Made by a program: the position numbers and the translations under genes. From Faecalibacter macacae (lineage in GTDB: Bacteria; Bacteroidota; Bacteroidia; Flavobacteriales; Weeksellaceae): a DNA stretch of 64,000 nt. The stretch spans positions 1-64,000 of the forward strand of contig NZ_RDOJ01000007.1 of assembly GCF_003687725.1 (NCBI RefSeq), given 5' to 3'. Positions within the stretch are counted from its first letter, which is position 1. Each line of letters begins with the position of its first letter. A model generated the notes under the pieces. That model did not search any database. It saw only the letters and a list, made by a program, of their open reading frames with translations, and had not been told where the DNA came from. Of this stretch, positions 8,865-46,831 are shown one piece after another.

Positions 8865-9383
8865 ATGTTAAAAACTAAAACAGCAAAAGAATCATTAGCA
8901 GTAATGACAAACTTGGTTTTACCGAATGAAACCAATCAATTAAATAACATGTTCGGTGGTGAACTTTTAGCTCGTATGGATCGTATTTCTGCTATTTCTG
9001 CAAAGATGCATTCAGGAAGTTTACAAGTTGTAACAGCAAGTGTGAATCACGTTTCTTTTAATCAACCAATTCCTCTTGGAAGTACAGTTAAATTGGAATC
9101 GAAAGTTACTCGTGCTTTTAAAACTTCGATGGAAGTTTATGTTGATGTTTTTGTTTATAACTATGAAGAAGAAAAGTTTACAAAAACAAACGATGCAATT
9201 TATACTTTTGTTGCTTTAGATGGTAATAATAAGCCTGTTGAAATTCCTGAATTAGTTGCTGAAACTGAATTAGAAATTGAACGTTATAATGCAGCTTTAC
9301 GCAGAAAACAATTAAGCTTAGTATTAGCTGGTCGTTTAAATCCGAAAGATGCCAACGAACTGAAAGCTTTGTTTTTAGGTTAA
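8865..9383 (+). CDS. Acyl-CoA thioesterase (hotdog fold), 172 aa
   Basis: The hotdog signature LNNMFGGELLARMD (about 26-39) and the conserved segment HVSFNQPIPLGSTVKLESKV mark the BACH/YciA acyl-CoA hydrolase family, which frees fatty acids from acyl-CoA in the cytoplasm. About 35 C-terminal residues beyond the domain are helical and charged. The gene is convergent with a second hotdog thioesterase, and the two share a bidirectional terminator. Substrate chain length cannot be read from the sequence. Confidence 0.88.
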   Translation: MLKTKTAKESLAVMTNLVLPNETNQLNNMFGGELLARMDRISAISAKMHSGSLQVVTASVNHVSFNQPIPLGSTVKLESKVTRAFKTSMEVYVDVFVYNYEEEKFTKTNDAIYTFVALDGNNKPVEIPELVAETELEIERYNAALRRKQLSLVLAGRLNPKDANELKALFLG

Positions 9384-9417: not shown

Positions 9418-9816
9418 TTACTTATTTTGTCCCGCAATGCGGTCTCTTACATATTCTACTTTGGTTTTACCATGAGGTTTTGGCACTCCATTTTCGTCTA
9501 AATTTACCATTGTTATTTTATCAACAGTAATAATCGTTTCATGCGTCATTTTGTTACGAACTTCACAATTTAAAACGAGAGATGTTGTACCAAATTTCAC
9601 AACTTCAATTCCAATTTCAACAATATCTCCTTGCTTTGCAGAAGCCATAAAATTAATCTCGGACATGTACTTTGTAACTACATGTGGATTTTCTAATTGA
9701 ACAACACTATAAAGTGCTGCTTCTTCATCAATCCATGCTAATAATCTACCTCCGAAAAGAGATTTATTTGGATTTAAATCTTCTGGTTTTACCCATTTAC
9801 GAGTGTGAAACTTCAT
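9418..9816 (-). CDS. Acyl-CoA thioesterase (YciA-like), 132 aa
   Basis: A short hotdog enzyme: NPNKSLFGGRLLAWIDEEAA (about 17-36) carries the catalytic aspartate region. The canonical family N-terminus HTRKWVKPEDLNPN supports the start at 9816. That start lies inside the upstream oxidoreductase frame, so the two genes overlap by 20 bp (9797-9816), which implies coupled translation. The product probably hydrolyses short or medium acyl-CoA; a precise substrate cannot be assigned. It is only distantly similar to the convergent 172-aa paralogue. Confidence 0.87.
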   Translation of the reverse strand: MKFHTRKWVKPEDLNPNKSLFGGRLLAWIDEEAALYSVVQLENPHVVTKYMSEINFMASAKQGDIVEIGIEVVKFGTTSLVLNCEVRNKMTHETIITVDKITMVNLDENGVPKPHGKTKVEYVRDRIAGQNK

Positions 9817-10798
9817 AAGCGTTCATTTGATGTAATTTATTTTCTTTTGCAAAATCATTAGCGGCTGAAATAAACTTCACTAAATCAACTGCGAATTTCC
9901 CGTCAAGGATACTTTCATTTTTACGAAATAACGCATCAGAAACCTCTTGTATAGCCTCTGGATGAAAGTTCTTTTGTTCTGTAGATACTTTGTTTGAACA
10001 ACAAACATTCTTTAAATCACTGTAAAGCATTTGATTTAAATATTGATCACCAATTTTAATCGTTCCTTTTTCAGCAATAATCGTAATATTTGATTCGAAA
10101 TTTTTATTAAAAACAGACGTCGTGTAAGTCATATGACCAACAGCTTCGTCTGCAATAAAATCAACATATCCACTATCATCAAATTCTGTAATATCAGAAT
10201 GTGAAAAATTAAAACTTCTTGAATTTACGCATTTAACCTCATCAAACCAATAGTTAATGATATCTACGAAATGAGAGAATTGAGTATATAAAACTCCACC
10301 ATCCATATCGTCTGTACCATGCCACTCTCTTAACTTGTAATAATTTCTATTACGGTTCCAATAACATTGTACATTAACCATGTGTATTTTACCTAAAGCA
10401 TTGTTCTCTACCAATTTTTTTACATATTGTACTACTGGAGAAAAACGTAATTGCATAGAAGAAAATACGCGTAACCCTTTCTCATTTGCAACAGCTAAAA
10501 TTTCTTCAGCATCTGCAACATTTAACGAAATTGGTTTCTCGATGAAAACATTTTTTCCAGCCTTTAAACAACGGATAGCATGTTCGCGATGCAAACCATT
10601 AGGTGTTGCAATTACTACCACATCAGTTGTTGTATCTTCTTGTAAGAAACTCTCTAATGTAGAGTAAGTTATTGCATCAAGATCAGAAGGTAAATTAAAA
10701 TCGATAATCGAAATTAAATTAGCATTTTCTGTATCTCTAATCGCTTGTTCATGAACTTTACCTATATGTCCATATCCAAGAATGGAAAAATTTTTCAT
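9797..10798 (-). CDS. Gfo/Idh/MocA family oxidoreductase
   Basis: 333 aa. There is an N-terminal NAD(P)-binding Rossmann fold (ILGYGHIGKVH at about 5-15) and the family EKP motif (FIEKPISL at about 88-95). The C-terminal alpha/beta domain has the segment NRNRNYYKLREWHGTDDMDG followed by a probable catalytic histidine in FSHFVDIINYW. This local pattern resembles UDP-sugar 3-dehydrogenases of the WlbA kind used for surface polysaccharides, but other sugar substrates are possible. It overlaps the thioesterase gene by 20 bp and starts only 4 bp after the upstream DUF6909-like gene, so the three form an operon. Confidence 0.85.
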   Translation of the reverse strand: MKNFSILGYGHIGKVHEQAIRDTENANLISIIDFNLPSDLDAITYSTLESFLQEDTTTDVVVIATPNGLHREHAIRCLKAGKNVFIEKPISLNVADAEEILAVANEKGLRVFSSMQLRFSPVVQYVKKLVENNALGKIHMVNVQCYWNRNRNYYKLREWHGTDDMDGGVLYTQFSHFVDIINYWFDEVKCVNSRSFNFSHSDITEFDDSGYVDFIADEAVGHMTYTTSVFNKNFESNITIIAEKGTIKIGDQYLNQMLYSDLKNVCCSNKVSTEQKNFHPEAIQEVSDALFRKNESILDGKFAVDLVKFISAANDFAKENKLHQMNAYEVSHS

Positions 10799-10802
10799 AC
10801 AA

Positions 10803-12464
10803 TTATTTGATGATTTTTTCTAAAATCTTTTGTGTAATTAGGTAAGTTGGTTTAACACCTGTTAATCCTAAACCTCCTGATGCTAATGTACTTCCAGTTT
10901 CTAATGGATTATCAGAAGCGTAGTAAGCGTACATTACTTTCACATCTTTGTCGATGTGGTGACGAATTTTAGAAGCTACCTGAATTGCTTTGTGGTAATG
11001 TGCTCCTTCCATTTCTAACCCTACCGCTTGGAAAGATGAATTTTTGAAATATTCTAAGATGTCTTTGTTTTGTAAAGAAGTTCCTAAAACCGAAATCATT
11101 GGCCCTTCGTAAACTCCTAAACCTGAATCTTTAAAATCTTCAGCTGTTAATTCATTGTCAAAAAAGTAATTATCAGTTGTTCCTTCAAATACGTGAGATG
11201 TTGCAATCATAATATCTCCTTTAACACCTTCTAAAATTCCAGCTTTCCCCATGATAGACACAGATTTCACATTCATTTTAAAATTAGCTTCTGCTTTTTT
11301 GTATGGTTTTAATAACTCATCCATTGCTTCAAAAGCTTGCTCTCCAAATGCATAATCCATAACGATAATTACTTCGTTATCTTTTGCTTTTGCATAAGAG
11401 AATCCTGTATTTTTAAGATCAACTTTCGCTAAATCGATAATTTGTACATCGATATTAGTTCCTGATTTATCTTTAATGTAAATTAATCCTTGTTTTTTTA
11501 CATAATCAAGTAACTCTGCTCTTAACAATTTATTGTTTGCAGCACTTAAATCTTCGTAAATTTCAACAGAATCACCTTTGTATTTACGTTTTAAACCATC
11601 ATAAGCATATAACATATTAGATACTGAATGCATATTTGCACTGATGATGTGAATATTTCTTTCGTGTAATCCGTTTTCGAATAATTGACGTTTAATTTCA
11701 TTCGCCCATTTTTCTCCAATTACGTGATGTCCGATAGATTCGCGTAAAGTTGATGTAAAAGTAATTTCACGTTTCTTAACTCCGATACGATCTGCCTGAC
11801 TTGTCATTCCCATCCAGTAAATGATAGAGAAGAATTTGTCTGGCTCGTCTGCCGTTCCGAAATATTCGTGAGTAGACTGCGTTTCTTCAAACGTACGTCC
11901 TAAGATGCTTGATAAGTGCATAATTGCAACTTCACGCTCTTGGCGAGTTAAATCTTTTTTCGTTAAAACGATTTCTTCAATAACTTCCCATAATCTACTT
12001 TTAGTTAAAGTTTGATTATCAAATGCGTGATTTCTGATTTTATCAGCTTCGTTGTATAAGAACGTTAAGTGTGTTAAAACATCAAAAATATCTGAACGAC
12101 CTCTAGAAATTTCGATGTTCATCTGATCATCATCGATTCTGTAACAAAAACGACGTCTTTTTGCAGGAATAATTGGAGTAAAGATTGAACGATCGTACCC
12201 TTCATCAGCAGTAAAAGAGATAAACGGAGTTTCTACAATTCCGTCAGGCAAACGATCTAAAACGTACATTAAACCACTTAATTCTACTTTATTAGGATCT
12301 GTCATAGAACCATAAATTTCTGGTTCTAATTCAAATAATAAGCTTCTTAAAATTTTACCAGGATTTCCTGACACTCTATAAACACCACGGTGAAATAAGT
12401 GGCGCATTGAAATATATAATCTTTCGATCGCATCTGTCGATCTTCTAGCTCTTGATATTGCCAT
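10803..12464 (-). CDS. DUF6909-like protein with nucleoside-phosphorylase-like C-terminus
   Basis: 553 aa, conserved-hypothetical in this class as far as I recognise it (DUF6909-type). Residues 1 to about 390 match no enzyme I can name. Residues 401-553 look like a nucleoside phosphorylase/hydrolase fold: SIMGKAGIL, then DIMIATSHVFEGT (about 417-429), then AVGLEMEGAHYHKAI (about 480-494), which recalls the ribose-binding ME motif, and a final SGGLGLTG glycine stretch. The product is probably cytoplasmic. It sits between DUF3109 (8 bp upstream) and the oxidoreductase (4 bp downstream), so it is part of an operon. The activity is inference only. Confidence 0.75.
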   Translation of the reverse strand: MAISRARRSTDAIERLYISMRHLFHRGVYRVSGNPGKILRSLLFELEPEIYGSMTDPNKVELSGLMYVLDRLPDGIVETPFISFTADEGYDRSIFTPIIPAKRRRFCYRIDDDQMNIEISRGRSDIFDVLTHLTFLYNEADKIRNHAFDNQTLTKSRLWEVIEEIVLTKKDLTRQEREVAIMHLSSILGRTFEETQSTHEYFGTADEPDKFFSIIYWMGMTSQADRIGVKKREITFTSTLRESIGHHVIGEKWANEIKRQLFENGLHERNIHIISANMHSVSNMLYAYDGLKRKYKGDSVEIYEDLSAANNKLLRAELLDYVKKQGLIYIKDKSGTNIDVQIIDLAKVDLKNTGFSYAKAKDNEVIIVMDYAFGEQAFEAMDELLKPYKKAEANFKMNVKSVSIMGKAGILEGVKGDIMIATSHVFEGTTDNYFFDNELTAEDFKDSGLGVYEGPMISVLGTSLQNKDILEYFKNSSFQAVGLEMEGAHYHKAIQVASKIRHHIDKDVKVMYAYYASDNPLETGSTLASGGLGLTGVKPTYLITQKILEKIIK

Positions 12465-12472
12465 AATTTTTT

Positions 12473-13051
12473 TTACTTTTTTTGATTATTTAATTCAGCC
12501 TGAATTTGCATTAACTCTCCATACCATTCTTCTCCAAATTTTCGTACCAAAGAATCTTTTGCAAACGTGGCTACATTCACTTTTAATTCTTTACCTAATG
12601 TACAAGCATCTGAACAAATATCCCACACATGGTAGTTAACTGCAGTAAAACTTGAATATTCCTTAACACGAACTGGGTATAAGTGACAAGAAATAGGCTT
12701 TTTATATTCAATAATACCTTCTTCGTACGCTTTTTCTATTCCACACTTAGAAAAACCGTTTTCTTCGAAAACTAAATATGCACATTCTTTGTTGTTAACT
12801 AACGGTGTAACCCAGTCACCATCAGTATCCATTGTATATTTACCTTCGTTTTCAATTACCTCAATTCCTTCAGGTCTTAAAAAAGGTTTTACATCTTCGT
12901 AGATATCGTCTAAAATAGATAACTCGTCCTCTTCTAAAGGAGCACCTGCGTCACCTTCTACACAACAAATTCCTTTACATTTATTCAAGTTACATACAAA
13001 CTCTTCATTAAGCAATTCTTCAGAGACCAAAGTCTTTCCTATTTGAAACAT
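12473..13051 (-). CDS. DUF3109 family Cys-rich protein
   Basis: 192 aa. The N-terminal cysteine cluster (C20, C25, C29 and C30 in CNLNKCKGICC) and later cysteines in NKECAY, SKCGIE, SCHLYPVR and DICSDAC are typical of DUF3109/YkgJ-like proteins, thought to bind zinc or an iron-sulfur centre. Function unknown. It is the first gene of the operon with the DUF6909-like and Gfo/Idh/MocA genes. A TATCTTTG -7 box lies at 13076-13083 on the minus strand, 25 bp upstream of the ATG, without a clear TTG at -33. Confidence 0.88.
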   Translation of the reverse strand: MFQIGKTLVSEELLNEEFVCNLNKCKGICCVEGDAGAPLEEDELSILDDIYEDVKPFLRPEGIEVIENEGKYTMDTDGDWVTPLVNNKECAYLVFEENGFSKCGIEKAYEEGIIEYKKPISCHLYPVRVKEYSSFTAVNYHVWDICSDACTLGKELKVNVATFAKDSLVRKFGEEWYGELMQIQAELNNQKK

Positions 13052-23700: not shown

Positions 23701-24963
23701 TTACTCCACCGTTACTTGCCCATTCATTAGCATAGGTAATAACCAATCGCGTAATTGTGCGAGTTCTTGGTTTTGTTTTGTATTAATTTTTATTTTAGCA
23801 TCATAGATTGATACCATATCATTGAATTTAGCCAAGATATCTTTATTAGGATAAGCTAATTTTAAAGTAAACAAATCGTCTTTAGTTAATGAACCAAAAG
23901 TTGTTCCTACCCCATTTAAAAAATCAAATCTTTTTTTAAATTCATTCATTAAATAAATAATGTAAGAGTTAAACCCTTCCTTACTATTTATACTTGCCAA
24001 CCCTCGACCAATACAACAATCATACATTGCTATATTCATTGTACCAACTGGTGCTCTAACACTTAATAGAATATCATCTTCTTTTGCAAATCTAGTAGGT
24101 TGAGAAGTATACATACGATTTTCTGGATATCTCCACCCAAAATCAGTAGAACCTTGAAAAAATATTATACCCTGAGCATCAGAATTGTATGATTCACCAG
24201 AAGGAGATTGTCCCATTGTTATATTAGCTATTTCATTTAACTCTTTCACCTCCCAACCCTCAGGAATTTCGCGTTTTAGAGTTGGATTGTAAACCATTTT
24301 ACCGCCAGATGATTTGTAGCCTACAGGATGAGATCCTGAAACAAGTTCAGGATGACTTTCGTTGGTGATAGGGAATTCGAATTGGACAAACCAATAATCG
24401 TACAGTGTTTTTGCCATGGCTTCTAACTCTGCATTGATTTTGTTGTTGACTTCGATTTTATCGTCTAAGGCTGAAAGAACTACGGCTATTTTTTGTTGTT
24501 CATTAATAGGCTTATTTATAATCTCAATCTCACCAAAATTTTTTAAAATAATTCTGGGAAGTGCACTACCTGAAACATATTTTTTAGCAACTGTATCTTT
24601 AACTGATTTTGTATGTAAATAATATTTTAAATAATGCGGATTAATTCTTTCAATGTCAGGACGTAATATTCCTATAGAAGATAATATAACTTCCTCTTTC
24701 TCTTCTCTAATTACAAATACGTGTTTTAAATAACTTCCATCTTTAGCAATTAATACATCATTAACTAGAGGTTTACAATCTGCTTTAACTAAATCATTGT
24801 AATCATTCTCAGAAATATATTTACAAGATGTAGAATCGAAACCGTTATGGTTCATATCTTTTACAGAATACATAGGAAAACCTTCATCAACCCCTATAGG
24901 ACTATAATGAGCACCATCAGTAATCTTAATACAAACATCTTTTAGTTTAATAAAGTTACTCAT
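23701..24963 (-). CDS. hsdS: Type I restriction enzyme specificity subunit HsdS
   Basis: 420 aa with the two-half plan of HsdS. Target-recognition domain 1 is about residues 1-150 with the helical spacer INEQQKIAVVLSALDDKIEV (153-172) after it. Domain 2 is about 232-385 with a second helical spacer at the end (KINTKQNQELAQLRDWLLPM). HsdS sets the bipartite DNA target of both methylation and cleavage. An extra peptide HPELVSGS at 204-211 is encoded by a mobile palindrome (24333-24353) in the linker before YKSSGGKMV. It overlaps the end of hsdM by 8 bp, so translation is coupled. The frame is intact. Confidence 0.93.
   Translation of the reverse strand: MSNFIKLKDVCIKITDGAHYSPIGVDEGFPMYSVKDMNHNGFDSTSCKYISENDYNDLVKADCKPLVNDVLIAKDGSYLKHVFVIREEKEEVILSSIGILRPDIERINPHYLKYYLHTKSVKDTVAKKYVSGSALPRIILKNFGEIEIINKPINEQQKIAVVLSALDDKIEVNNKINAELEAMAKTLYDYWFVQFEFPITNESHPELVSGSHPVGYKSSGGKMVYNPTLKREIPEGWEVKELNEIANITMGQSPSGESYNSDAQGIIFFQGSTDFGWRYPENRMYTSQPTRFAKEDDILLSVRAPVGTMNIAMYDCCIGRGLASINSKEGFNSYIIYLMNEFKKRFDFLNGVGTTFGSLTKDDLFTLKLAYPNKDILAKFNDMVSIYDAKIKINTKQNQELAQLRDWLLPMLMNGQVTVE
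24333..24353. repeat. Dispersed palindrome inside hsdS
   Basis: Perfect 8-bp arms ATCCTGAA (24333-24340) and TTCAGGAT (24346-24353) around ACAAG, the same arms as at 1252-1272. Read in the hsdS frame it encodes most of HPELVSGS. Confidence 0.88.
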
Positions 24964-26569
24964 ACTTCAATCCTTTTAATTGTTTCTGAATCTCTTGGTC
25001 TAAGGCGTTGCCTTCTGCAAATAAAGTAGCTAAACGCGTTTCGAAATCGTTCATTTTTTGTTGGAACTCTTCGGGTGTAATGTCAACATATTCAATCTTT
25101 ACCTCGAAGTATTGTCCTGCTGAAAACGAATAATTTTTTGCAATAATTTCTTCTTTGGAAACGACTACGCTTAAATCTTCAACGGCTTCTTTGTTGTTGA
25201 AGGTTTCAATGATTTTTTCTTCCTCATCTTGCGTTAAAACCGTACGTTGGTTCTTCCCATCTTTTACCGTTGTTCCTAACTTTGATGCATCCATTAACAC
25301 AATGTGTTCGTTGTCTGCATTTTTATCTAGGAATACTACCGATACATTAGTCCCCGTACTTGCAAAAATATTAGATGGCATAGAAACTACCCCACGTAAC
25401 CATCCACGCTCTATCATCGCTTGGCGAATTTTCTTTTCGATTCCACTTTGTGCCGTAATAAAACCTGTAGGTAACACAATGGCTGCTTTTCCTTTGTCGG
25501 ATAGGCTGTACATGATGTGTTGAATAAACATTAAGTAAATCGCCATCGATTCCTTTTTTGTTTTAGGCACATTAGGAATCCCAGCGAAGAAACGATCTTT
25601 AAACGCATCCTTTTGTAAATCTTCTCTAAAATCGGAAAAATCTAATTTAAACGGAGGATTAGAAACAATGTAATCGAACTTCTCGTTTAAATACGTTGGT
25701 TCCGCAATAGTATTGGTTTTAATGATATTTGGGATACTGTGTGATAAATTGTTTAACACTAAATTTAAACGCAACATATTAGATGATTTCTGCGAAATAT
25801 CCTCTGAATAAATGGTACAATTTTCTTCCCCAATTTGGTGGGCAATACTCATCAATAACGTTCCTGAACCCGCACTTGGGTCGTAACATTTTACGCCACT
25901 TACAGGATCTGGTGCTAAAATTTTAGCCATAATACGAGCCACCGCGTGAGGTGTGTAATATTCGGCATATTTACCACCCGAATCGGTGTTGTAATCTTTG
26001 ATTAAATACTCGAAAATCGTTGCAAAGAAATCGTATTTCTCTTCGAACATTTTCTCGAAAGAAAATTCGAATAATTTATTGACTAATGCACGACAAAAAG
26101 CATCACGTTGTGAACCATCCGAAATGAATTGGCTTAACTCATCAAACATTTTATCTTTCGCACCAGAAGAAGATTTGATCGAGAAAATCTCTGCATTTTC
26201 TAAACTGATTTGGCGTAACGTATCATCAAACAACTTGGCAAAATCCTCTTGATTTTGGTTGTTGTATAAATACGTAATCATGTGTTGTGGTCTTAACTGT
26301 GGAATATCAGCCCCAATTAACACCGTTAAGAAATTATATTCGTCTTCGGACAAATTTTCTAATGCTTGTTGGAAGTTATCTGCTTCTGCTAAAGTAGGAT
26401 TAACTTTCTTCGCTTCATAACGAAATTTATCATTCAAGAATTTGTATAAGAATACCTGTGTGATAATCTTAAATTCGTTCCCGTCGTTTCCTAAACCATA
26501 ATTGGCACACACACTTTTTAAGTTGTCGATTAATGCCTTTGTTTGGTTAATGAAATTTATATCTGTCAT
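24956..26569 (-). CDS. hsdM: Type I restriction-modification N6-adenine methyltransferase HsdM
   Basis: 537 aa. An N-terminal helical HsdM_N domain (about 8-150) is followed by the N6-adenine methylase with the SAM motif DPSAGSGTLL (230-239) and catalytic NPPF (304-307). Two HsdM with one HsdS form the methylase that protects host DNA; HsdR adds cleavage. It starts 31 bp after hsdR and overlaps hsdS by 8 bp, so hsdR-hsdM-hsdS are one operon on the minus strand. All motifs are intact, so the methylase is probably active. Confidence 0.96.
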   Translation of the reverse strand: MTDINFINQTKALIDNLKSVCANYGLGNDGNEFKIITQVFLYKFLNDKFRYEAKKVNPTLAEADNFQQALENLSEDEYNFLTVLIGADIPQLRPQHMITYLYNNQNQEDFAKLFDDTLRQISLENAEIFSIKSSSGAKDKMFDELSQFISDGSQRDAFCRALVNKLFEFSFEKMFEEKYDFFATIFEYLIKDYNTDSGGKYAEYYTPHAVARIMAKILAPDPVSGVKCYDPSAGSGTLLMSIAHQIGEENCTIYSEDISQKSSNMLRLNLVLNNLSHSIPNIIKTNTIAEPTYLNEKFDYIVSNPPFKLDFSDFREDLQKDAFKDRFFAGIPNVPKTKKESMAIYLMFIQHIMYSLSDKGKAAIVLPTGFITAQSGIEKKIRQAMIERGWLRGVVSMPSNIFASTGTNVSVVFLDKNADNEHIVLMDASKLGTTVKDGKNQRTVLTQDEEEKIIETFNNKEAVEDLSVVVSKEEIIAKNYSFSAGQYFEVKIEYVDITPEEFQQKMNDFETRLATLFAEGNALDQEIQKQLKGLKYE

Positions 26570-26600
26570 TTTATTGTTTTCGTTATTTGTATTCTTTACT

Positions 26601-29600
26601 TTATCTGTATCCGTTGTATTGTTGTTGGTACTCGCTTACGATTAAGTAATTTATTTTTTGGGTTGTTTTAAAATCTAACTTAATGTTTTGGGTTTGCACA
26701 AATTCTTTCACCACATTTTGCATTAAATTCTTTTCGAAGAAAGCGGTATTGCTTAAAATGTTTTGATTTTTAAGGATTTGCTCGTCTGTTTTTTCTTTTA
26801 CTTTGATTAACGCATCAAATAATTTAGACTCTTGCACACCTAACCCTTCATTTTCGGTTAAACGATTATGGATACGCACGTACTTTTCGTCGTTTTGATA
26901 CTTATCTTTTAGGTTATTATTTAAACGATTTAGTTCCTTTACTTTGTCGTGAATATTTTTAAGTAAGTGAATATGCTCTTGCATTTCGTCCTGCGAAACC
27001 TCATCTAATTTCTTGTTGGCAAAGATACGTTCTAACTCTTCTCTTAACGAAATAAAACGAGGATCTTGTTGGTCGAAATTATGTTGTAAGGCTTCTCGCG
27101 TTGTACGAATTTGATTTTTTAATTGATCGGCTAATACCAATTCGTTTTCTCCAATTTTCACAAAATCAAAATAAACCTCCTCTAAAGCCAGGTTTAATAA
27201 TTTAGTATTCTCTTCTTTGTTTTGAAGGTTATCTACTACGTTTAATTTATCTAATTGCGCACGAGCTTCGATTAAAAAGCGGTTGTAATCTGAAAAATTG
27301 ATATCAAGTTCGATGTCTTCGTATCCTTCCAATTTAATTACATTTCTTAAATCTTTGGCTGTTTGTAATGCCTTTACTAAATCTAAGACAATACTTTTAT
27401 CTTTGATTTGTTGAATTTGTTGAGAGAAAATTTCTTTGTTTTGGGTGTTGTATTGGAATAAGGTTTCTTTGACCTGTTGTAAGTCTTTTTGCACCTCTTC
27501 TTTGGATTTGAATAAATTGTTGTAATACTCGAAATCGTCGCCCAATTGATTTTGAAGCTCTTGAAAATACAAGGCATTGGTACGGTCGAATGCTTTAGAA
27601 ATATCTGCAAAATCAACAACGTAACCGTATTCGTAACTTTTATATGGACGGTTAACACGTGTTAAGGCTTGTAATAAATTATGATCTTTAATGACACGAT
27701 TTAGATACAATTTCTTTAAACGATTTGCACTGAAACCTGTTAGTAGCATGTTGTAAACAAATAAGATGTCTACTTTACCACTTTTAAAGCCTTTGATTAA
27801 ATCTTTACGAATTTCTTTGTCGTTGGCATCGTGCAAGATTAAAGCCGCTTTTAATTTAGGCTGTTTTGTTTGGTAGACATTGTATGGTTCGGCTACTAAT
27901 TTGCTTGCATCAATTTCTTGTACGCCATATTTCTCTTCGAACAATTCGAATAACTTTTTAGCTTGAGTTGCTGATTCACAAACGACCATTGCCCCTAATG
28001 AGCTGTCGTTATTAGCAACACGGAATTCGATTAAATCATCTGTAATATATTCTAACAATGGACGAACGTATTGCTCGTGAGCATAGACCTCTGTTTTTAG
28101 AATATCGCCTTGTTTTACCTGTAAACGATCTAAAACTTCTGCCATTTGCATTTGGAATTTACTTTTAATTTCCTCTCGGATTAAACGCAACGTATATCCG
28201 TCGGCAATTGACATGTTGTAATAATATTTGTGAATATAATCCCCAAACAACTTTTTAGAATCATATTCTTTAGCAACCTCTTTTAATAAAGGGGTACCTG
28301 TTAATGCGATTTTAATTGCATTTTTATCCGAACTAATTAAGTTGGCTAAATAGTTACCTTTTGGATTGTATGAACGGTGTGCTTCATCTAAGAAATAGAT
28401 TCGCTGTACATTGATATCATAATCAATAGGCATATCTGTACTTACCTCGTCTGAAAACTTTTGAATGTTAACTACTGTAATTTCTGGTTCACCTGCGTGA
28501 TTCAAAATTGCTCCAACTTTTTTCATATCGTTAATGAACTCTATACGAGAATTGACACGGTTTACTTTTAACCCACGATTTGAAAATTCGGTTGTTGCTT
28601 GTTCTAATAAGTCGATACGGTCTACAATGAAATAGAACTTAGGAATGATGTTTTTCTTTTGGAAATAATCTGTTAAGTGCTTTACGTTGTAATAAGCTAA
28701 TGCTGTTTTCCCTGAACCTTGTGTATGCCAAATGATGCCTTTGTTGATGCCTTGATCTAACTTTGCAGCAATTGCCATGGTTGCGAATATCTGAGGATAA
28801 CGCATGATGTGTTTTTGAACTACAGGAACGCCATTTTCTTCTTCGTGTACATACGCCAATGTGTATTTTAAGATAAAAGCGAAACGCTGACGTGAAAGTA
28901 ATGAAGTTAATATTCTATTGGTTGGTGAATCGTAGTGTTTATTTGTGATGTATTCGGGACTGTCTTTGATGGCGTATAGGTTATTATCCTTTAAGATTTC
29001 GATTTCTTTTTCGGGATTGATTTCTTTTAGTCGATCTTGAACAGGATAGTCTGGATCTTCTCTGAAATAACTGAAATGTAGTTTTTTATATGCTGATGTT
29101 GCATAATAAGCACCTTGTATAGGTTCGATTACCCCGTCTTCGTATTCCATGTTATTAGAGAAGATCATTAACTGCGTAATGTTTGCAAATCTTCTGAATT
29201 TAGGATTTTGAAAACGTTGATTGATACGTTTACGTTCAGCTAGAATACCGTCTTTGTTATTCGGTTTCTTTACTTCGATAAATGATAAAGGAATCCCGTT
29301 GATTAAAATGGTGATGTCTGGACGAAATTCTTCTTCTCCGTTACGACAAGTTAGTTCAGTCGTTACATGAAATGAATTGTTGTTGAAGTCTTTGAAGTCG
29401 ATTAATTTGATTCCTGATGAAGAAGTTAATCTTTTGTAGAATTTTTCTCCTAGGTCTTCAAAATTCGCTTCTAAAGTAATCTCATCTAAGACTACTTTAA
29501 TTTCGTCTTTTGTTGCATCGGGATTGATTCTTTGAATACTTTCAAAGAATATTTCTGTAAATATGTTGGTTTCCTCTTGTCTTTTTTGTTGGTTTTGAGG

Positions 29601-29675
29601 TATGTATTGGTATCCTAATCGTGTTAGATGTAAAAGTGCTGGTATTTTTACTCTTGAGTCTTCGTTGAAAGCCAT
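26601..29675 (-). CDS. hsdR: Type I restriction enzyme motor/nuclease subunit HsdR
   Basis: 1024 aa. The N-terminal PD-(D/E)xK nuclease is marked by RPDITILINGIPLSFIEVKKP. The superfamily-2 helicase has Walker A GSGKTALAYYN, FLDEAHRSYN (DEAH box) and LTGTPLLKEVAKEY, then the second RecA lobe with VYNMLLTGFSANRLKKLYLNR and ALTRVNRPYK. A long helical C-terminal part (about 700-1024) contacts the methylase. HsdR translocates DNA and cuts it at a distance. Length and order resemble the EcoR124 class. It is the first gene of the operon; I see no good TTG/TAnnTTTG promoter just upstream. Confidence 0.96.
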   Translation of the reverse strand: MAFNEDSRVKIPALLHLTRLGYQYIPQNQQKRQEETNIFTEIFFESIQRINPDATKDEIKVVLDEITLEANFEDLGEKFYKRLTSSSGIKLIDFKDFNNNSFHVTTELTCRNGEEEFRPDITILINGIPLSFIEVKKPNNKDGILAERKRINQRFQNPKFRRFANITQLMIFSNNMEYEDGVIEPIQGAYYATSAYKKLHFSYFREDPDYPVQDRLKEINPEKEIEILKDNNLYAIKDSPEYITNKHYDSPTNRILTSLLSRQRFAFILKYTLAYVHEEENGVPVVQKHIMRYPQIFATMAIAAKLDQGINKGIIWHTQGSGKTALAYYNVKHLTDYFQKKNIIPKFYFIVDRIDLLEQATTEFSNRGLKVNRVNSRIEFINDMKKVGAILNHAGEPEITVVNIQKFSDEVSTDMPIDYDINVQRIYFLDEAHRSYNPKGNYLANLISSDKNAIKIALTGTPLLKEVAKEYDSKKLFGDYIHKYYYNMSIADGYTLRLIREEIKSKFQMQMAEVLDRLQVKQGDILKTEVYAHEQYVRPLLEYITDDLIEFRVANNDSSLGAMVVCESATQAKKLFELFEEKYGVQEIDASKLVAEPYNVYQTKQPKLKAALILHDANDKEIRKDLIKGFKSGKVDILFVYNMLLTGFSANRLKKLYLNRVIKDHNLLQALTRVNRPYKSYEYGYVVDFADISKAFDRTNALYFQELQNQLGDDFEYYNNLFKSKEEVQKDLQQVKETLFQYNTQNKEIFSQQIQQIKDKSIVLDLVKALQTAKDLRNVIKLEGYEDIELDINFSDYNRFLIEARAQLDKLNVVDNLQNKEENTKLLNLALEEVYFDFVKIGENELVLADQLKNQIRTTREALQHNFDQQDPRFISLREELERIFANKKLDEVSQDEMQEHIHLLKNIHDKVKELNRLNNNLKDKYQNDEKYVRIHNRLTENEGLGVQESKLFDALIKVKEKTDEQILKNQNILSNTAFFEKNLMQNVVKEFVQTQNIKLDFKTTQKINYLIVSEYQQQYNGYR

Positions 29676-30337: not shown

Positions 30338-30408
30338 AGGTTCCTAGCGGATTCGAACCGCTGTGGACGGTTTTGCAGACCGCTACCTAACCGCTCGGTC
30401 AAGGAACC
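30338..30408 (-). tRNA. tRNA-Cys (GCA)
   Basis: A 71-nt cloverleaf on the minus strand. The acceptor arms GGTTCCT and AGGAACC pair fully, the anticodon arm GCGGT-CTGCAAA-ACCGT shows GCA, the T arm is AGCGG-TTCGAAT-CCGCT, and position 73 is U as in cysteine tRNAs. The 3' CCA is not encoded. It forms the right border of the restriction island. Confidence 0.96.
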
Positions 30409-41036: not shown

Positions 41037-41109
41037 GGTGCCTTAGCTCAGTTGGTAGAGCAAAGGACTGAAAATCCTTGTGTCCCTGGTTCGATTCCTG
41101 GAGGCACCA
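41037..41109 (+). tRNA. tRNA-Phe (GAA)
   Basis: 73 nt. The acceptor arms GGTGCCT and AGGCACC pair fully, the anticodon arm AAGGA-CTGAAAA-TCCTT carries GAA, and the T arm is CCTGG-TTCGATT-CCTGG. The discriminator base is A. CCA is not encoded. It has its own promoter and terminator. Confidence 0.97.
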
Positions 41110-41236: not shown

Positions 41237-43501
41237 CTAAGCATTTTGTGCTTTAATTAAATTTAATGCAGAACCTGCTTTAAACCATTCGATTTGCGCT
41301 TCATTATATGTATGATTTGCTAAAATTGTATCAGAAGTACCATCCGCATGAACAAATTCTAAAGTTAATGGCTTCCCTGGAGCAAAATCAACTAAATCTA
41401 AAAAGTTAATAGTATCATCTTCCTGTATTTTATCGTAATCTGATTTATCAGCAAAAGTTAAAGCTAACATTCCTTGCTTTTTCAAATTAGTTTCATGAAT
41501 ACGAGCAAACGAACGAACTAAAACAGCTACAGAACCTAAATGACGTGGTTGCATCGCTGCATGCTCACGAGAAGACCCTTCTCCATAGTTTTCATCTCCA
41601 ACAATCACTGAAGGAACACCCGCAGCTTTATAAGCACGAGCAGTTGCAGGAACTGGCCCATATTCTCCAGTTAATTGATTTTTAACTGAATTCACATCTT
41701 GATTGAATGCATTTACAGCCCCAATTAAAGTATTATTAGCAATATTATCTAAATGCCCACGAAAACGCAACCAAGGACCAGCCATAGAAATATGATCGGT
41801 TGTACATTTCCCGAAAGCTTTGATTAATAATTTAGCTCCTGTAATATTTTCACCATTCCATGGTTTAAAACCTTCCAATAACTGTAAACGCTCAGATCCT
41901 GGAGCTACAACAACTTCCACAGAAGAACCATCTTCAACCGCCGCTTGGTATCCATTATCTTCATAAGCATATCCTTTAGTTGGCAATTCGTCACCAACAG
42001 GCGCATCTAACATCACTTCTTCCCCGTCTTTATTTACCAACTTATCTGTCATTGGATTAAAGTCTAAACGTCCCGCAATTGCAATTGCAGCTACCATTTC
42101 TGGAGAAGTTACAAAAGCATATGTATTTGGATTACCATCGGCACGTTTTTTAAAATTACGGTTGAATGAGTGAACTATCGTATTTTTTTCTTCTTTATCA
42201 GCACCTTCACGATCCCATTGACCAATACAAGGTCCACAAGCATTTGTAAAGATTACAGCATTAAGATCTTCGAAAGTCTTGATAAACCCATCACGAGCAG
42301 CTGTATAACGAACCACTTCTGAACCTGGATTAATACCAAAAGAAGCTTTTGTTCCTAACCCTTTTTCTATCGCTTGTTGAGCAATTGAAGCCGCACGCGA
42401 TAAATCTTCGTAAGATGAGTTGGTACAAGAACCGATTAAACCCCACTCTACATCTAATGGCCATCCATTTGCTGCAGCAGTTTCCTTCATTTTAGAAACT
42501 GGCGTCATTAAATCTGGTGTAAATGGACCATTTAAACGAGGTTCAAGTTCAGATAAATTAATTTCAATTAATTGATCATAGAAATTTGCTGGATTAGCAT
42601 ACACTTCGTCATCCGAACGTAAATAAGCCTTCATTGCATTAGCTGCATCAGCAACATCATTACGATCAGTAGCTCTTAAATATCTCTCAGAAGCATCATC
42701 ATAAGCAAAAATAGAAGTTGTCGCACCAATTTCGGCACCCATGTTACAAATCGTTCCTTTACCTGTTGCAGATAAAGATTCAGCACCCTCCCCAAAATAT
42801 TCTACAATAGCACCAGTACCACCTTTTACAGTTAATAAACCAGCAACTTCTAAGATTACATCTTTTGGAGAAGCCCAACCAGATAATTTACCTGTTAATT
42901 TAACACCAATTAATTTTGGCATTTTTAACTCCCAAGCCATTCCAGCCATTACATCTACAGCATCAGCACCACCAACACCAATAGCAACCATTCCTAATCC
43001 ACCAGCGTTTGGAGTATGAGAATCGGTTCCAATCATCATTCCACCAGGAAATGCGTAATTCTCTAAAACTACTTGATGAATAATACCTGCTCCTGGTTTC
43101 CAGAATCCGATTCCATATTTGTTAGAAACTGATTCTAAAAAGTTAAATACTTCTGATGATTTTTTGATTGCTTCTTTTAAATCCGTCTTAGCTCCGACTT
43201 TCGCTTGAATTAAGTGATCACAGTGAACTGTAGACGGAACAGCAGTTTTTGTTTTACCTGCTTGCATAAATTGTAACAATGCCATCTGTGCTGTTGCATC
43301 TTGCATTGCAACACGATCAGGAGCAAAGTCTACATAAGACTCACCCCTTACATATGCTTCAGTTGGTTGTCCACTAAATAAGTGTGCATATAAAATTTTC
43401 TCTGAGTAAGTTAAAGGACGCCCTACGATAGTTTTCGCCGCATCTACACGTTCTTGCATACGCGCGTAAACTCCTTTAATCATATCGATATCAAAAGCCA
43501 T
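41237..43501 (-). CDS. Aconitate hydratase, AcnA/mitochondrial type
   Basis: 754 aa. The three iron-sulfur cysteines are in [13 protein letters not shown] and [10 protein letters not shown]. Other marks are [22 protein letters not shown] and the swivel domain segment [18 protein letters not shown]. The enzyme interconverts citrate and isocitrate in the TCA cycle; its length and [12 protein letters not shown] motif match the mitochondrial-type form. It lies just downstream of the AcnB gene, but the terminator at 43645-43677 separates them, so it probably has its own promoter. Confidence 0.95.
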
Positions 43502-43709: not shown

Positions 43710-46472
43710 TTATTTTGTAGAAATTGGAGTAAACTTAGTTAAATTAATTCCAGCTACTGCAGCTTTGTACTCTTCGATAGAAGGAATACGTCCTAAAATT
43801 GCAGATAAAACTACAACTGGAGTAGATGCTAATAAAGATTCACCTTTTTTACCATCTCTATCCTCTACTACACGACCTTGGAATAAACGAGTAGAAGTAG
43901 CTAATACAGTATCACCTTTTTCAGCTTTTTCTTGGTTACCCATACATAAGTTACATCCAGGACGCTCTAAGTACATAATGTTTTCATATTGTGTACGAGC
44001 TTCAGATTTAGGTAATAAGTCGCTAAATTCGAAACCTGAATATTTTTGTAACATTTCCCAATCACCTTCTGCTTTTAATTCGTCGATGATATTGTAAGTT
44101 GGAGCAGCAACTACTAATGGTGCGTTGAATTTAACTTCACCTTGTTGAGCTTCAACGTTACGTAACATTTGAGAAACAATTTTTAAATCGTCTTTGTGAA
44201 CCATACAAGATCCTACGAATCCTAAATCTACAGTTTTATCGTTACCGTAGTAAGATAATTCACGGATTACATCATGAGTATAACGCTTAGAAACATCTAC
44301 ATTGTTTACATCTGGATCTGCAATCATTGGCTCGTCGATGATATCTAAATCGATAACAACCTCAGCATAGTATTTCGCGTTAGCATCTGGTTGTAAAGCT
44401 GGCTTAGCACCTGAACGAATTTCTTCGATACGAGTGTTAGCTTTCTCGATTAATCCGTGTAACACGTTGTTTTTGTTCTCCATTCCTTTATCAATCATGA
44501 TTTGGATACGAGATTTAGCAATTTCTAAAGATTGGATTAAAGTCTCGTCTTGAGAAATACAGATAGAAGCTTTCGCTTTCATCTCAGCAGTCCAGTCAGT
44601 GAAAGTAAACGCTTGGTCAGCTAATAAAGTTCCGATATGAACCTCGATGATACGACCTTGGAATACGTTTTCTCCGTCAAATTGCTTTAACATTTGTTGT
44701 TGAGTCGCGTGTACAACATCACGGAAATCCATGTGTTCTTTCATCGCTCCTTTGAAGGTAACTTTAACAGATTCTGGAATTGGCATAGAAGCTTCACCAG
44801 TAGCTAAAGCTAAAGCAACAGTACCAGAGTCAGCACCGAAAGCAACACCTTTAGACATACGAGTGTGAGAGTCACCACCGATAATGATAGCCCACTCGTC
44901 AATAGTGATATCATTTAATACTTTATGGATAACGTCTGTCATTGAGTGATAAACTCCTTTAGGATCACGAGCTGTAATTACCCCGAAGTCGTTCATAAAT
45001 TTCATTAATTTAGGAATGTTTGCTTGCGCTTTTTTATCCCATACAGACGCTGTGTGACATCCTGATTGGTATGCACCATCAACAACTGGAGAAATAACTG
45101 TAGCAGCCATTGCCTCTAATTCTTGAGCTGTCATTAAACCTGTTGTATCTTGAGATCCTACGATGTTAACTTTAACACGTACATCAGATCCTGCGTGTAA
45201 AACTGTTCCTTCTGCAACACCTACAGCATTGTTGTTGAAGATTTTTTCAACTGCAGTTAATCCTTGTCCTTCTACAGAAACTTCTTTAGCAGGAGCGAAA
45301 ACTACAGGAGCTTCAACACCTAAAGTTTGAGCTGCGAAAGTTTGAATTTTTTTACCAAATACGATAGCATAAGAACCACCAGCTTTGATAAACTCTAATT
45401 TTTGTGGTGTGAAAGATTTAGAGATATCTTTTAATTCAACGTCACCGTTGTATAATTTTTTAGTTTTAGTGTTAATAGTTAAAACTGTACCTGTTGCAAC
45501 AGAGTAAGCTTCTTCTAAAACAATATCACCAGCTTCGTTACGAACTACGTTTCCGTTTTCGTCTGTTTTCTTAACCCAGTTTTGTAAATCGATACCGATA
45601 CCTCCTGTTACATCAACAGTAGTTAAGAAAATTGGAGAAATACCGTTAGTACCTGCTACAATTGGAGCAATGTTAACGAAAGGAACGTATGGAGATGCTT
45701 GTTTACCAGTCCATAAAGCCACGTTATTAACACCTGACATACGAGAAGATCCAACACCCATTGTACCTTTTTCAGCAATTAACATAACTGATGCATCTGG
45801 ATGAGCAGCTTTTAAAGCTTCGATTTCTTGTTGTTGAGCAGGAGTCATCATACATTGTCCGTGTAATTCACGGTCAGAACGAGAGTGTGCTTGGTTACCT
45901 GGAGATAATAAATCTGTAGAAATATCACCTTCAGCAGCGATATAAGTAACAACTTTAATTTCTTCAGCAACTTCTGGTAATTCTGTAAAGAATTCAGCTT
46001 TAGCGTAACTTTCTAAAATATCTTTTGCAATTGCGTTTCCAGAATTGTAAGCATCAGCTAAACGAGCAGTATCTGCTTCGTATAAGAAAACTTGAGTTTT
46101 TAAAACTTTAGCCGCTTTTTGAGCTAATTCTGCGTTTTCACCTAAAGCGATGTCTAATAAAACTTCAATAGATGGTCCACCTTTCATGTGAGATAATAAC
46201 TCAAATGCGAAAGCAGGAGTAATTTCAGCAACTACTTCTTGACCTAAAATGATTTCTTTTAAAAATTTTGCTTTAACACCAGCAGCAGAAGTTGTTCCTG
46301 GTAAAGTGTTGTAGATAAAGAATTTTACAGAATCCTCACGGTATTCATTTCCTAAATCTTTGATTTGAGCGATAATTTCGCTTAATAATTCAGCACCATC
46401 AATAGGTTTTGGGTGTAATCCTTGACCTTTTCTTTCTTCAATTTCGTTAATATACTCCTTATAAAGGCTCAT
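43710..46472 (-). CDS. acnB: Aconitate hydratase B / 2-methylisocitrate dehydratase
   Basis: 920 aa from MSLYKEYINEIEERK at 46472 (the frame runs on to 46511, but this is the family N-terminus). AcnB has an N-terminal HEAT-like domain, then the swivel and the three catalytic domains. The Fe-S cysteines lie in GCHTASVWDKKAQ, LGFVGSCMVHKDD and PGCNLCMGNQEKA. It carries TCA-cycle aconitase activity and may also hydrate 2-methyl-cis-aconitate. A TATTTTTG -7 box lies on the minus strand at 46569-46576. Two aconitase types in tandem suggest differential use, such as one being more stable under oxidative stress (inference). Confidence 0.96.
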   Translation of the reverse strand: MSLYKEYINEIEERKGQGLHPKPIDGAELLSEIIAQIKDLGNEYREDSVKFFIYNTLPGTTSAAGVKAKFLKEIILGQEVVAEITPAFAFELLSHMKGGPSIEVLLDIALGENAELAQKAAKVLKTQVFLYEADTARLADAYNSGNAIAKDILESYAKAEFFTELPEVAEEIKVVTYIAAEGDISTDLLSPGNQAHSRSDRELHGQCMMTPAQQQEIEALKAAHPDASVMLIAEKGTMGVGSSRMSGVNNVALWTGKQASPYVPFVNIAPIVAGTNGISPIFLTTVDVTGGIGIDLQNWVKKTDENGNVVRNEAGDIVLEEAYSVATGTVLTINTKTKKLYNGDVELKDISKSFTPQKLEFIKAGGSYAIVFGKKIQTFAAQTLGVEAPVVFAPAKEVSVEGQGLTAVEKIFNNNAVGVAEGTVLHAGSDVRVKVNIVGSQDTTGLMTAQELEAMAATVISPVVDGAYQSGCHTASVWDKKAQANIPKLMKFMNDFGVITARDPKGVYHSMTDVIHKVLNDITIDEWAIIIGGDSHTRMSKGVAFGADSGTVALALATGEASMPIPESVKVTFKGAMKEHMDFRDVVHATQQQMLKQFDGENVFQGRIIEVHIGTLLADQAFTFTDWTAEMKAKASICISQDETLIQSLEIAKSRIQIMIDKGMENKNNVLHGLIEKANTRIEEIRSGAKPALQPDANAKYYAEVVIDLDIIDEPMIADPDVNNVDVSKRYTHDVIRELSYYGNDKTVDLGFVGSCMVHKDDLKIVSQMLRNVEAQQGEVKFNAPLVVAAPTYNIIDELKAEGDWEMLQKYSGFEFSDLLPKSEARTQYENIMYLERPGCNLCMGNQEKAEKGDTVLATSTRLFQGRVVEDRDGKKGESLLASTPVVVLSAILGRIPSIEEYKAAVAGINLTKFTPISTK

Positions 46473-46831
46473 AATTGTTATTTTTTGAAAATTAAAGGCT
46501 GTAACATCCAAGGCAATTTAATGCATTTTCCATCCCAACCAGTAATAATTAATTATATATATTTCTTACAAAAATACAGTTCTATTGATAATTTTTCATA
46601 GAACTTCAATCATTTTTAATTATACTCTAACAATTTAGAACAATTACAAAAAATGATTAAATTTCACATTCCTAATAATTTAGGGCAAAAAAATCTATCT
46701 CGAAAAAATAAAACCATTTTAAATATCTACTTGATAATTTTTAGGCCTATTTTTTGTTAAGTTAGGTTATTCCAATAAGACTTAACGGCATTAAAATACT
46801 TCAATACACTTTGTCTTAATATAATAAAATC

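Follow-up and report, generated by a model that had tools for sequence, protein, structure and literature searches.

Gene content and genetic context of the locus

At positions 10803 to 12464 (minus strand) of the window, by which we mean the whole stretch of 64,000 nucleotides analyzed here, lies an open reading frame of 553 codons with an ATG start and free of internal stops, the 553-amino-acid product of which is proposed below to be a nucleotide N-glycosidase. This protein is matched by the Pfam profile PF21850 (DUF6909) at 213.9 bits (E-value, 4.4e-63) against a curated cut-off of 27 bits, and what the original prediction had called DUF6909-like is thus a full member of that family. The Pfam entry names no function, and a literature word search returned no paper in which DUF6909 is mentioned. 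A single DUF6909 copy is present in the genome (2.9 Mb, 47 contigs), which also encodes MTAN, PunA, and Udp-type enzymes, and the closest relatives by protein identity (82 to 88%) are those of Faecalibacter, Empedobacter, Chishuiella, and Algoriella. Relatives with 54% identity were also encountered on the large Persicobacter plasmids NZ_AP025295.1 and CP012860.1, these being the only 2 matching records among 72,556 plasmid records.

The DUF6909 gene is preceded, at a distance of 8 bp, by a DUF3109 (PF11307) gene (12473 to 13051, minus strand) and is followed after 4 bp by a gene encoding a Gfo/Idh/MocA-type oxidoreductase (9797 to 10798, minus strand). The close spacing of these three genes, described in the original prediction as co-transcribed, is real, but the gene order is retained in close relatives only, which account for the 12 of 35 loci at which DUF3109 adjoins the DUF6909 gene and for the 11 at which the oxidoreductase gene does so. 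At other loci the neighbors differ and include genes for a GH3 ligase (L052), glutamine synthetase III (L043), and a methyltransferase (L049). Because the neighbors change between genera, gene neighborhood was set aside as a functional clue, and the bearing on function that had been attributed to the two adjoining genes falls away.

Several other features of the window were recorded. A pair of hotdog-type acyl-CoA thioesterase-like genes lies in facing orientation with 34 bp in between (8865 to 9383, plus strand, and 9418 to 9816, minus strand), the second gene being matched by Pfam 4HBT and the first being assigned by sequence reading only. Similar reading pointed to an apparently complete type I restriction-modification set comprising specificity, methylase, and nuclease genes (23701 to 29675, minus strand) and to a pair of adjacent aconitase-like genes on the minus strand (41237 to 43501 and 43710 to 46511), the products of which differ in type (754 and 933 amino acids). 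Two tRNA genes (30338 to 30408, minus strand, and 41037 to 41109, plus strand) represent the sole Rfam matches in the window.

Predicted fold and domain layout

The AlphaFold2 model of the full protein, built on a 31-sequence alignment, reached a mean pLDDT of 88.2 and a pTM of 0.85. A Foldseek search of the PDB with this model returned 369 matches at an E-value of ≤0.001, headed by uridine phosphorylase 4k6o (6.9e-8), with the MTAN structure 5cce near the top of the list and AMP nucleosidase 2guw at rank 35. VIA-align placed adenosine phosphorylase 3uay first (Z 19.5; 2.6 Å over 212 residues), the best 50 rows ranging from Z 19.5 to 18.4 with the leaders tied, and 687 of 999 chains reaching a Z of ≥8. 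Judged by the model, the DUF6909 domain adopts the fold of the PNP/UDP phosphorylase superfamily (PF01048), and the comparison with phosphorylase folds that had been suggested for this protein therefore recovered, through AlphaFold2, Foldseek, and VIA, the predicted nucleoside phosphorylase fold.

Since the part of the model aligned by VIA spans residues 251 to 553, the phosphorylase-type domain covers approximately residues 248 to 553 (10806 to 11723, minus strand). The boundary at residue 401 given in the original prediction was therefore not supported, the domain starting near residue 248 and being about twice the size claimed. With the PF01048 profile (PNP_UDP_1) the protein itself scores 12.0 bits, under the curated cut-off of 25.1 bits, which is passed by one DUF6909 member, from a spirochaete (L069, 25.7 bits), and weak matches (E-value of ≤1) were obtained for 17 of 31 members. 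A sequence search of the PDB yielded a chance match only when performed with the protein itself and 0 matches when performed with the DUF6909 profile A1.

The N-terminal domain (residues 1 to 247; 11724 to 12464, minus strand) is predicted to be mostly helical and contains the KRRR motif (residues 102 to 105; 12150 to 12161, minus strand), in which R103 and R105 are invariant. An N-terminal region lacking a known relative, as had been described, does exist, but its length is approximately 250 residues and not 390. When residues 1 to 254 were modeled alone (AlphaFold2 pLDDT, 87.7), zero Foldseek matches to the PDB were obtained at an E-value of ≤0.001 (best, 0.29), and the best VIA Z was 3.4. 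A related solved fold was thus absent from the Foldseek and VIA searches, which falls short of proof of a new fold. The VIA rows pairing this domain with uridine phosphorylases, at Z values of up to 3.4, were regarded as within chance. Two identities considered for the N-terminal half, a degenerate further copy of the phosphorylase domain and the N-terminal domain of Amn, were rejected, the hhalign E-values of 0.15 to 0.58 amounting to nothing.

Conserved residues and motifs

Conservation was assessed in an alignment of 81 rows, made up of 80 open reading frames and the protein of the window, which is also among those frames and is hence counted twice. Residues R103, R105, N277, H279, K407, Q465, N466, E484, M485, E486, G487, S517, D518, and P520 are the same in every one of the 81 rows. 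In the PNP/UDP superfamily, a Met-Glu pair binds ribose and an Asp is catalytic, with Asn or other residues in some branches; the corresponding residues of DUF6909 are M485, E486, and D518, present in every row. The key glutamate, the loss of which from the family had been named beforehand as a reason to abandon the prediction, is E486 and is identical throughout. Likewise, SIMGKAG, DIMIATSHVFEGT, and GLEMEGAHYHKAI are present where they had been reported, and the invariance of K407, E484, M485, E486, G487, and D518 marks them as features of the family and not of chance.

Along the C-terminal domain, the first strand-loop motif is SANMHSV (residues 275 to 281; 11622 to 11642, minus strand), of which S275, N277, H279, and S280 are invariant. 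It is followed by GKAG (residues 406 to 409; 11238 to 11249, minus strand), which corresponds to GKCG in the short AMP nucleosidases and to GHCG in the long ones, by EMEG (residues 484 to 487; 11004 to 11015, minus strand), which harbors the ribose-binding Met-Glu pair, and by SDNPL (residues 517 to 521; 10902 to 10916, minus strand), a catalytic Asp motif of the kind seen in AMP nucleosidases. The last of these forms part of YYASDNPL (residues 514 to 521), which the original prediction did not mention. By eye, the SANMHSV loop may be read as the counterpart of the TN(Y/F) loop of AMP nucleosidases, a reading that the alignment does not give; the pairing of N277 with Amn N205, also made by eye, was not reproduced by the alignment. 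H247, invariant in a first alignment and considered as a partner-subunit histidine, was dropped, as it is retained in 70 of 81 rows (otherwise Ser, Gly, or Met) and lies where the alignment is uncertain.

In DeoD/Udp-type enzymes, an Arg preceding a GxxG motif has a role in the phosphate site. E. coli DeoD and Udp both have this Arg, but DUF6909 has Ile, Leu, Met, or Val in its place, and this mark of a phosphorylase is therefore lacking.

Relationship to AMP nucleosidases and other subfamilies

In AMP nucleosidase, M404, E405, and D428 (E. coli numbering) stabilize the base and sugar, while R381 and K436 are associated with the phosphate (PMC9584410). The first three residues align with M485, E486, and D518 in 22 of 22 DUF6909 rows. 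In the same rows, R381 is invariably replaced by Thr and W383 by Leu, Phe, or Met, and the K436 position is occupied by Thr, Ser, Asn, Gly, Asp, or Arg and never by Lys. As the counterparts of R381, W383, and K436 are not conserved, the phosphate of AMP would need to be held in some other way, and with the known phosphate ligands gone, the substrate could also be a different one.

A further mark of the AMP nucleosidases, the motif SDxP(L/M) following the final catalytic strand, was derived in this study and not from the literature. In the form SDxP(L/M/I), it occurs in 81 of 81 DUF6909 rows and in 17 of 17 AMP nucleosidases, as opposed to 0 of 16 DeoD, Udp, MTAN, and PunA sequences. Together with GKxG, it points to a kinship of the DUF6909 domain with AMP nucleosidases rather than with DeoD, Udp, MTAN, or PunA. 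Where short AMP nucleosidases read FLGKCGG and EGTSNDYF, DUF6909 proteins mostly read IMGKAG and EGT(T/A)DNY.

Profile comparisons by hhalign between DUF6909 and AMP nucleosidases gave E-values between 1e-4 and 1e-2, and because each of these refers to a single comparison, more weight was placed on a decoy test in which a DUF6909-domain profile was scored on a set of 33 real superfamily sequences plus 660 shuffled copies. Seven of 10 short AMP nucleosidases outscored the best of the 660 decoys, compared to 0 of the 23 other real sequences, with all scores at or below 11 bits. In the reverse test, the short AMP nucleosidase model ranked 9 of 22 DUF6909 rows above all decoys, a combined model 2 of 22, and the long AMP nucleosidase and PunA models 0 of 22 each. 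By these sequence measures, the nearest subfamily of DUF6909 is the short AMP nucleosidase. In a larger set, hhalign placed the PunA profile (E-value, 0.0049, in a different register) about level with the long AMP nucleosidases (0.009), so profile E-values alone cannot select a subfamily. A one-sequence hhalign comparison with E. coli Amn was discarded, having been in the wrong register (E-value, 0.41); the motifs were aligned by deeper profiles only.

The short AMP nucleosidase of Bacteroidota (TIGR01721/PRK07115; PDB 1ybf), whose AMP activity is itself an annotation ("hypoth_equivalog"), shares with DUF6909 the PNP/UDP fold (by annotation), the order of the motifs, the Met-Glu pair, SDxP(L/M), GKxG, and the absence of an Arg before GxxG. 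It differs in its length of approximately 260 amino acids, in having no N-terminal domain, and in retaining the R381, W383, and K436 counterparts that DUF6909 lacks, and no match at an E-value of ≤1 was obtained between the protein and the NCBIfam models, including TIGR01717 and TIGR01721. The long AMP nucleosidase of Proteobacteria (Amn, TIGR01717; E. coli P0002) resembles DUF6909 in possessing two domains, of which the C-terminal one is catalytic, and in M404, E405, and D428, whereas the N-terminal domains are unrelated in sequence and the phosphate ligands differ. The hexameric DeoD/Udp phosphorylases share the predicted fold (Z 19.5 over 212 residues), at 11 to 18% identity in the structural alignments listed, but possess the Arg before GxxG and lack SDxP, both being opposite to DUF6909. 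DUF6909 was therefore not classified as an AMP nucleosidase, since neither the phosphate ligands nor the family models supported such a classification, although it probably works like one.

Distribution in Bacteroidota and Spirochaetota

PF21850 was detected in 43 of 296 Bacteroidota genomes, including all 36 drawn from the order to which the strain belongs, while AMN-like genes (TIGR01721, E-value of ≤0.001) were detected in 129, of which 120 were strong (>140 bits) and 9 weak. DUF6909 and a strong AMN-like gene occurred together in 0 of the 296 genomes. Weak AMN-like matches (<40 bits or an E-value of >1e-10) were excluded as MTAN-type paralogues by a cut of our own, affecting 9 genomes of the 296 and 5 of the 179 described next; 5 and 3 of these exclusions, respectively, fell within DUF6909 genomes. 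Within the class of the strain or closer, 43 genomes carried DUF6909, 29 an AMN-like gene, and 1 (G041) neither, as counted from match lists in which a genome devoid of all searched genes is invisible.

The two genes are also complementary within one order (that of G064; 179 genomes), in which DUF6909 was found in 21 genomes and AMN-like genes in 142 (137 strong), with both in 0 genomes, against 16.1 expected, and neither in 21; the Fisher test applied to co-occurrence ignores the relatedness of the genomes. The genes are interleaved in one family (f5), in which 17 genomes of 12 genera carry DUF6909, 11 genomes of 7 genera carry an AMN-like gene, and none carries both, the total of 28 of 28 again being drawn from match lists where a genome without every searched gene would not appear. 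On an rpoB tree of 30 genomes, 6 changes of state were needed, at least 5 of them forced by well-supported branches. As these genomes (17 of the 21 with DUF6909 and 13 of the 137 with an AMN-like gene) were chosen for carrying exactly one of the genes, the tree counts swaps and says nothing on exclusion. PunA, employed as a control, was found in 20 of these 21 genomes with DUF6909 (155 of 179 overall), and a wholesale loss of purine enzymes therefore does not account for the exclusion. In Bacteroidota, the short AMP nucleosidase (TIGR01721) and DUF6909 are thus mutually exclusive, with at least five swaps within one order.

Among 296 Spirochaetota genomes, PF21850 exceeded its cut-off in 18 and a strong AMN-like gene was found in 26; both were present in 1 (1.6 expected), and exclusion is not visible. 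AMN-like matches below 140 bits, left out of this count, concerned 127 of 153 genomes, including the DUF6909 genomes G359 (37 bits) and G567 (33 bits). The pattern in this phylum is uninformative and counts against a strict rule of exclusion. The genome in which DUF6909 co-occurs with a strong AMN-like gene is G439 (L082), the only such case among the spirochaetes drawn.

In many spirochaete members, DUF6909 is preceded by a cyclic-nucleotide-binding domain. An N-terminal cNMP_binding domain (PF00027) exceeded the cut-off in 8 of 11 spirochaete DUF6909 proteins examined; of the other three, L074 has a match below the cut-off, while L076, whose frame starts near a contig end, and L077 have none. 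The Bacteroidota-like proteins of the spirochaete draw are encoded by frames of approximately 560 to 600 amino acids, which leave no room for such a domain.

Proposed function of DUF6909

It is proposed that DUF6909 is an active enzyme of the PNP/UDP superfamily which removes the base from a purine nucleotide, AMP being the likeliest, through hydrolysis of the N-glycosidic bond, and which stands in for AMP nucleosidase, an enzyme absent from these bacteria; we consider this proposal to have an even chance of being correct. Its broader premise, put forward in the original prediction, of a fused enzyme with a nucleoside or nucleotide as its substrate is well supported on computational grounds because the predicted fold and the key glutamate both proved favorable. 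The active site would lie in the C-terminal domain (residues 248 to 553), where E486 and M485 are presumed to hold the ribose, D518 would donate a proton to the leaving base, and loops bearing N277, K407, and Q465/N466 would complete the pocket. The N-terminal domain (residues 1 to 247) may supply the basic residues R103 and R105 for the phosphate or may have a regulatory role, and in the spirochaete branch the added cyclic-nucleotide-binding domain would gate activity.

Among the alternatives, the most substantial, which we regard as somewhat unlikely, is a nucleosidase of the same superfamily acting on another substrate, such as some other nucleotide, a nucleoside bearing a modification, or a compound resembling S-adenosylhomocysteine, by which AMP nucleosidase would be rendered dispensable only indirectly. 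The missing counterparts of R381 and K436 in all 22 rows are in keeping with such a substrate, as is the presence of MTAN, PunA, and Udp-type enzymes in the same genome, since an extra activity would be needed only for what these do not do. Against this, the one-for-one exchange with AMN-like genes, seen at no fewer than five points of the rpoB tree, and the SDxP motif held in common with AMP nucleosidases both argue for the same or a very close reaction. That DUF6909 instead uses phosphate to remove the base, yielding ribose 1-phosphate or ribose 1,5-bisphosphate, is unlikely: the top structural matches, tied in Z, are indeed hexameric phosphorylases, and the invariant K407 and H279 could bind phosphate, but where E. 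coli DeoD and Udp carry an Arg ahead of GxxG, DUF6909 has an aliphatic residue or Met. The same Arg is lost in AMP nucleosidases, which are hydrolases (PMC9584410). By analogy with these enzymes, which make up the nearest subfamily, hydrolysis by DUF6909 is favored, and the label of phosphorylase is not supported.

A catalytically dead nucleotide-binding sensor that regulates a partner would fit the spirochaete fusions but is very improbable, as E486, D518, and their surroundings are invariant, which is rarely the case for a dead enzyme, and a constant partner gene is absent from the 35 loci. PNP-type domains are known in anti-phage effectors, Detocs being an example, and DUF6909 might likewise destroy ATP or AMP; this we consider the least credible reading by far, given that PADLOC matched none of the three proteins submitted, that relatives were not found among the viral contigs searched, and that the gene occurs in every genome drawn from the order of the strain.

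Should DUF6909 indeed replace AMP nucleosidase, a gap in adenylate metabolism would be filled in an order where this family, without an assigned function, is present in 36 of 36 genomes, and in part of a neighboring order, and a simple test, the release of adenine from AMP, would be feasible. A bolder form of the proposal, which we advance as speculative and rather doubtful, is that DUF6909 represents an AMP-degrading enzyme of separate evolutionary origin whose N-terminal fold is new, one that was repeatedly swapped with AMP nucleosidase in Bacteroidota and made into a single-chain device in spirochaetes, where a cyclic nucleotide would directly gate the breakdown of AMP. A literature search for such a cyclic-nucleotide fusion found no paper, and the spirochaete proteins, if they function in this manner, would to our knowledge provide the first known case of direct cyclic-nucleotide control of AMP breakdown.
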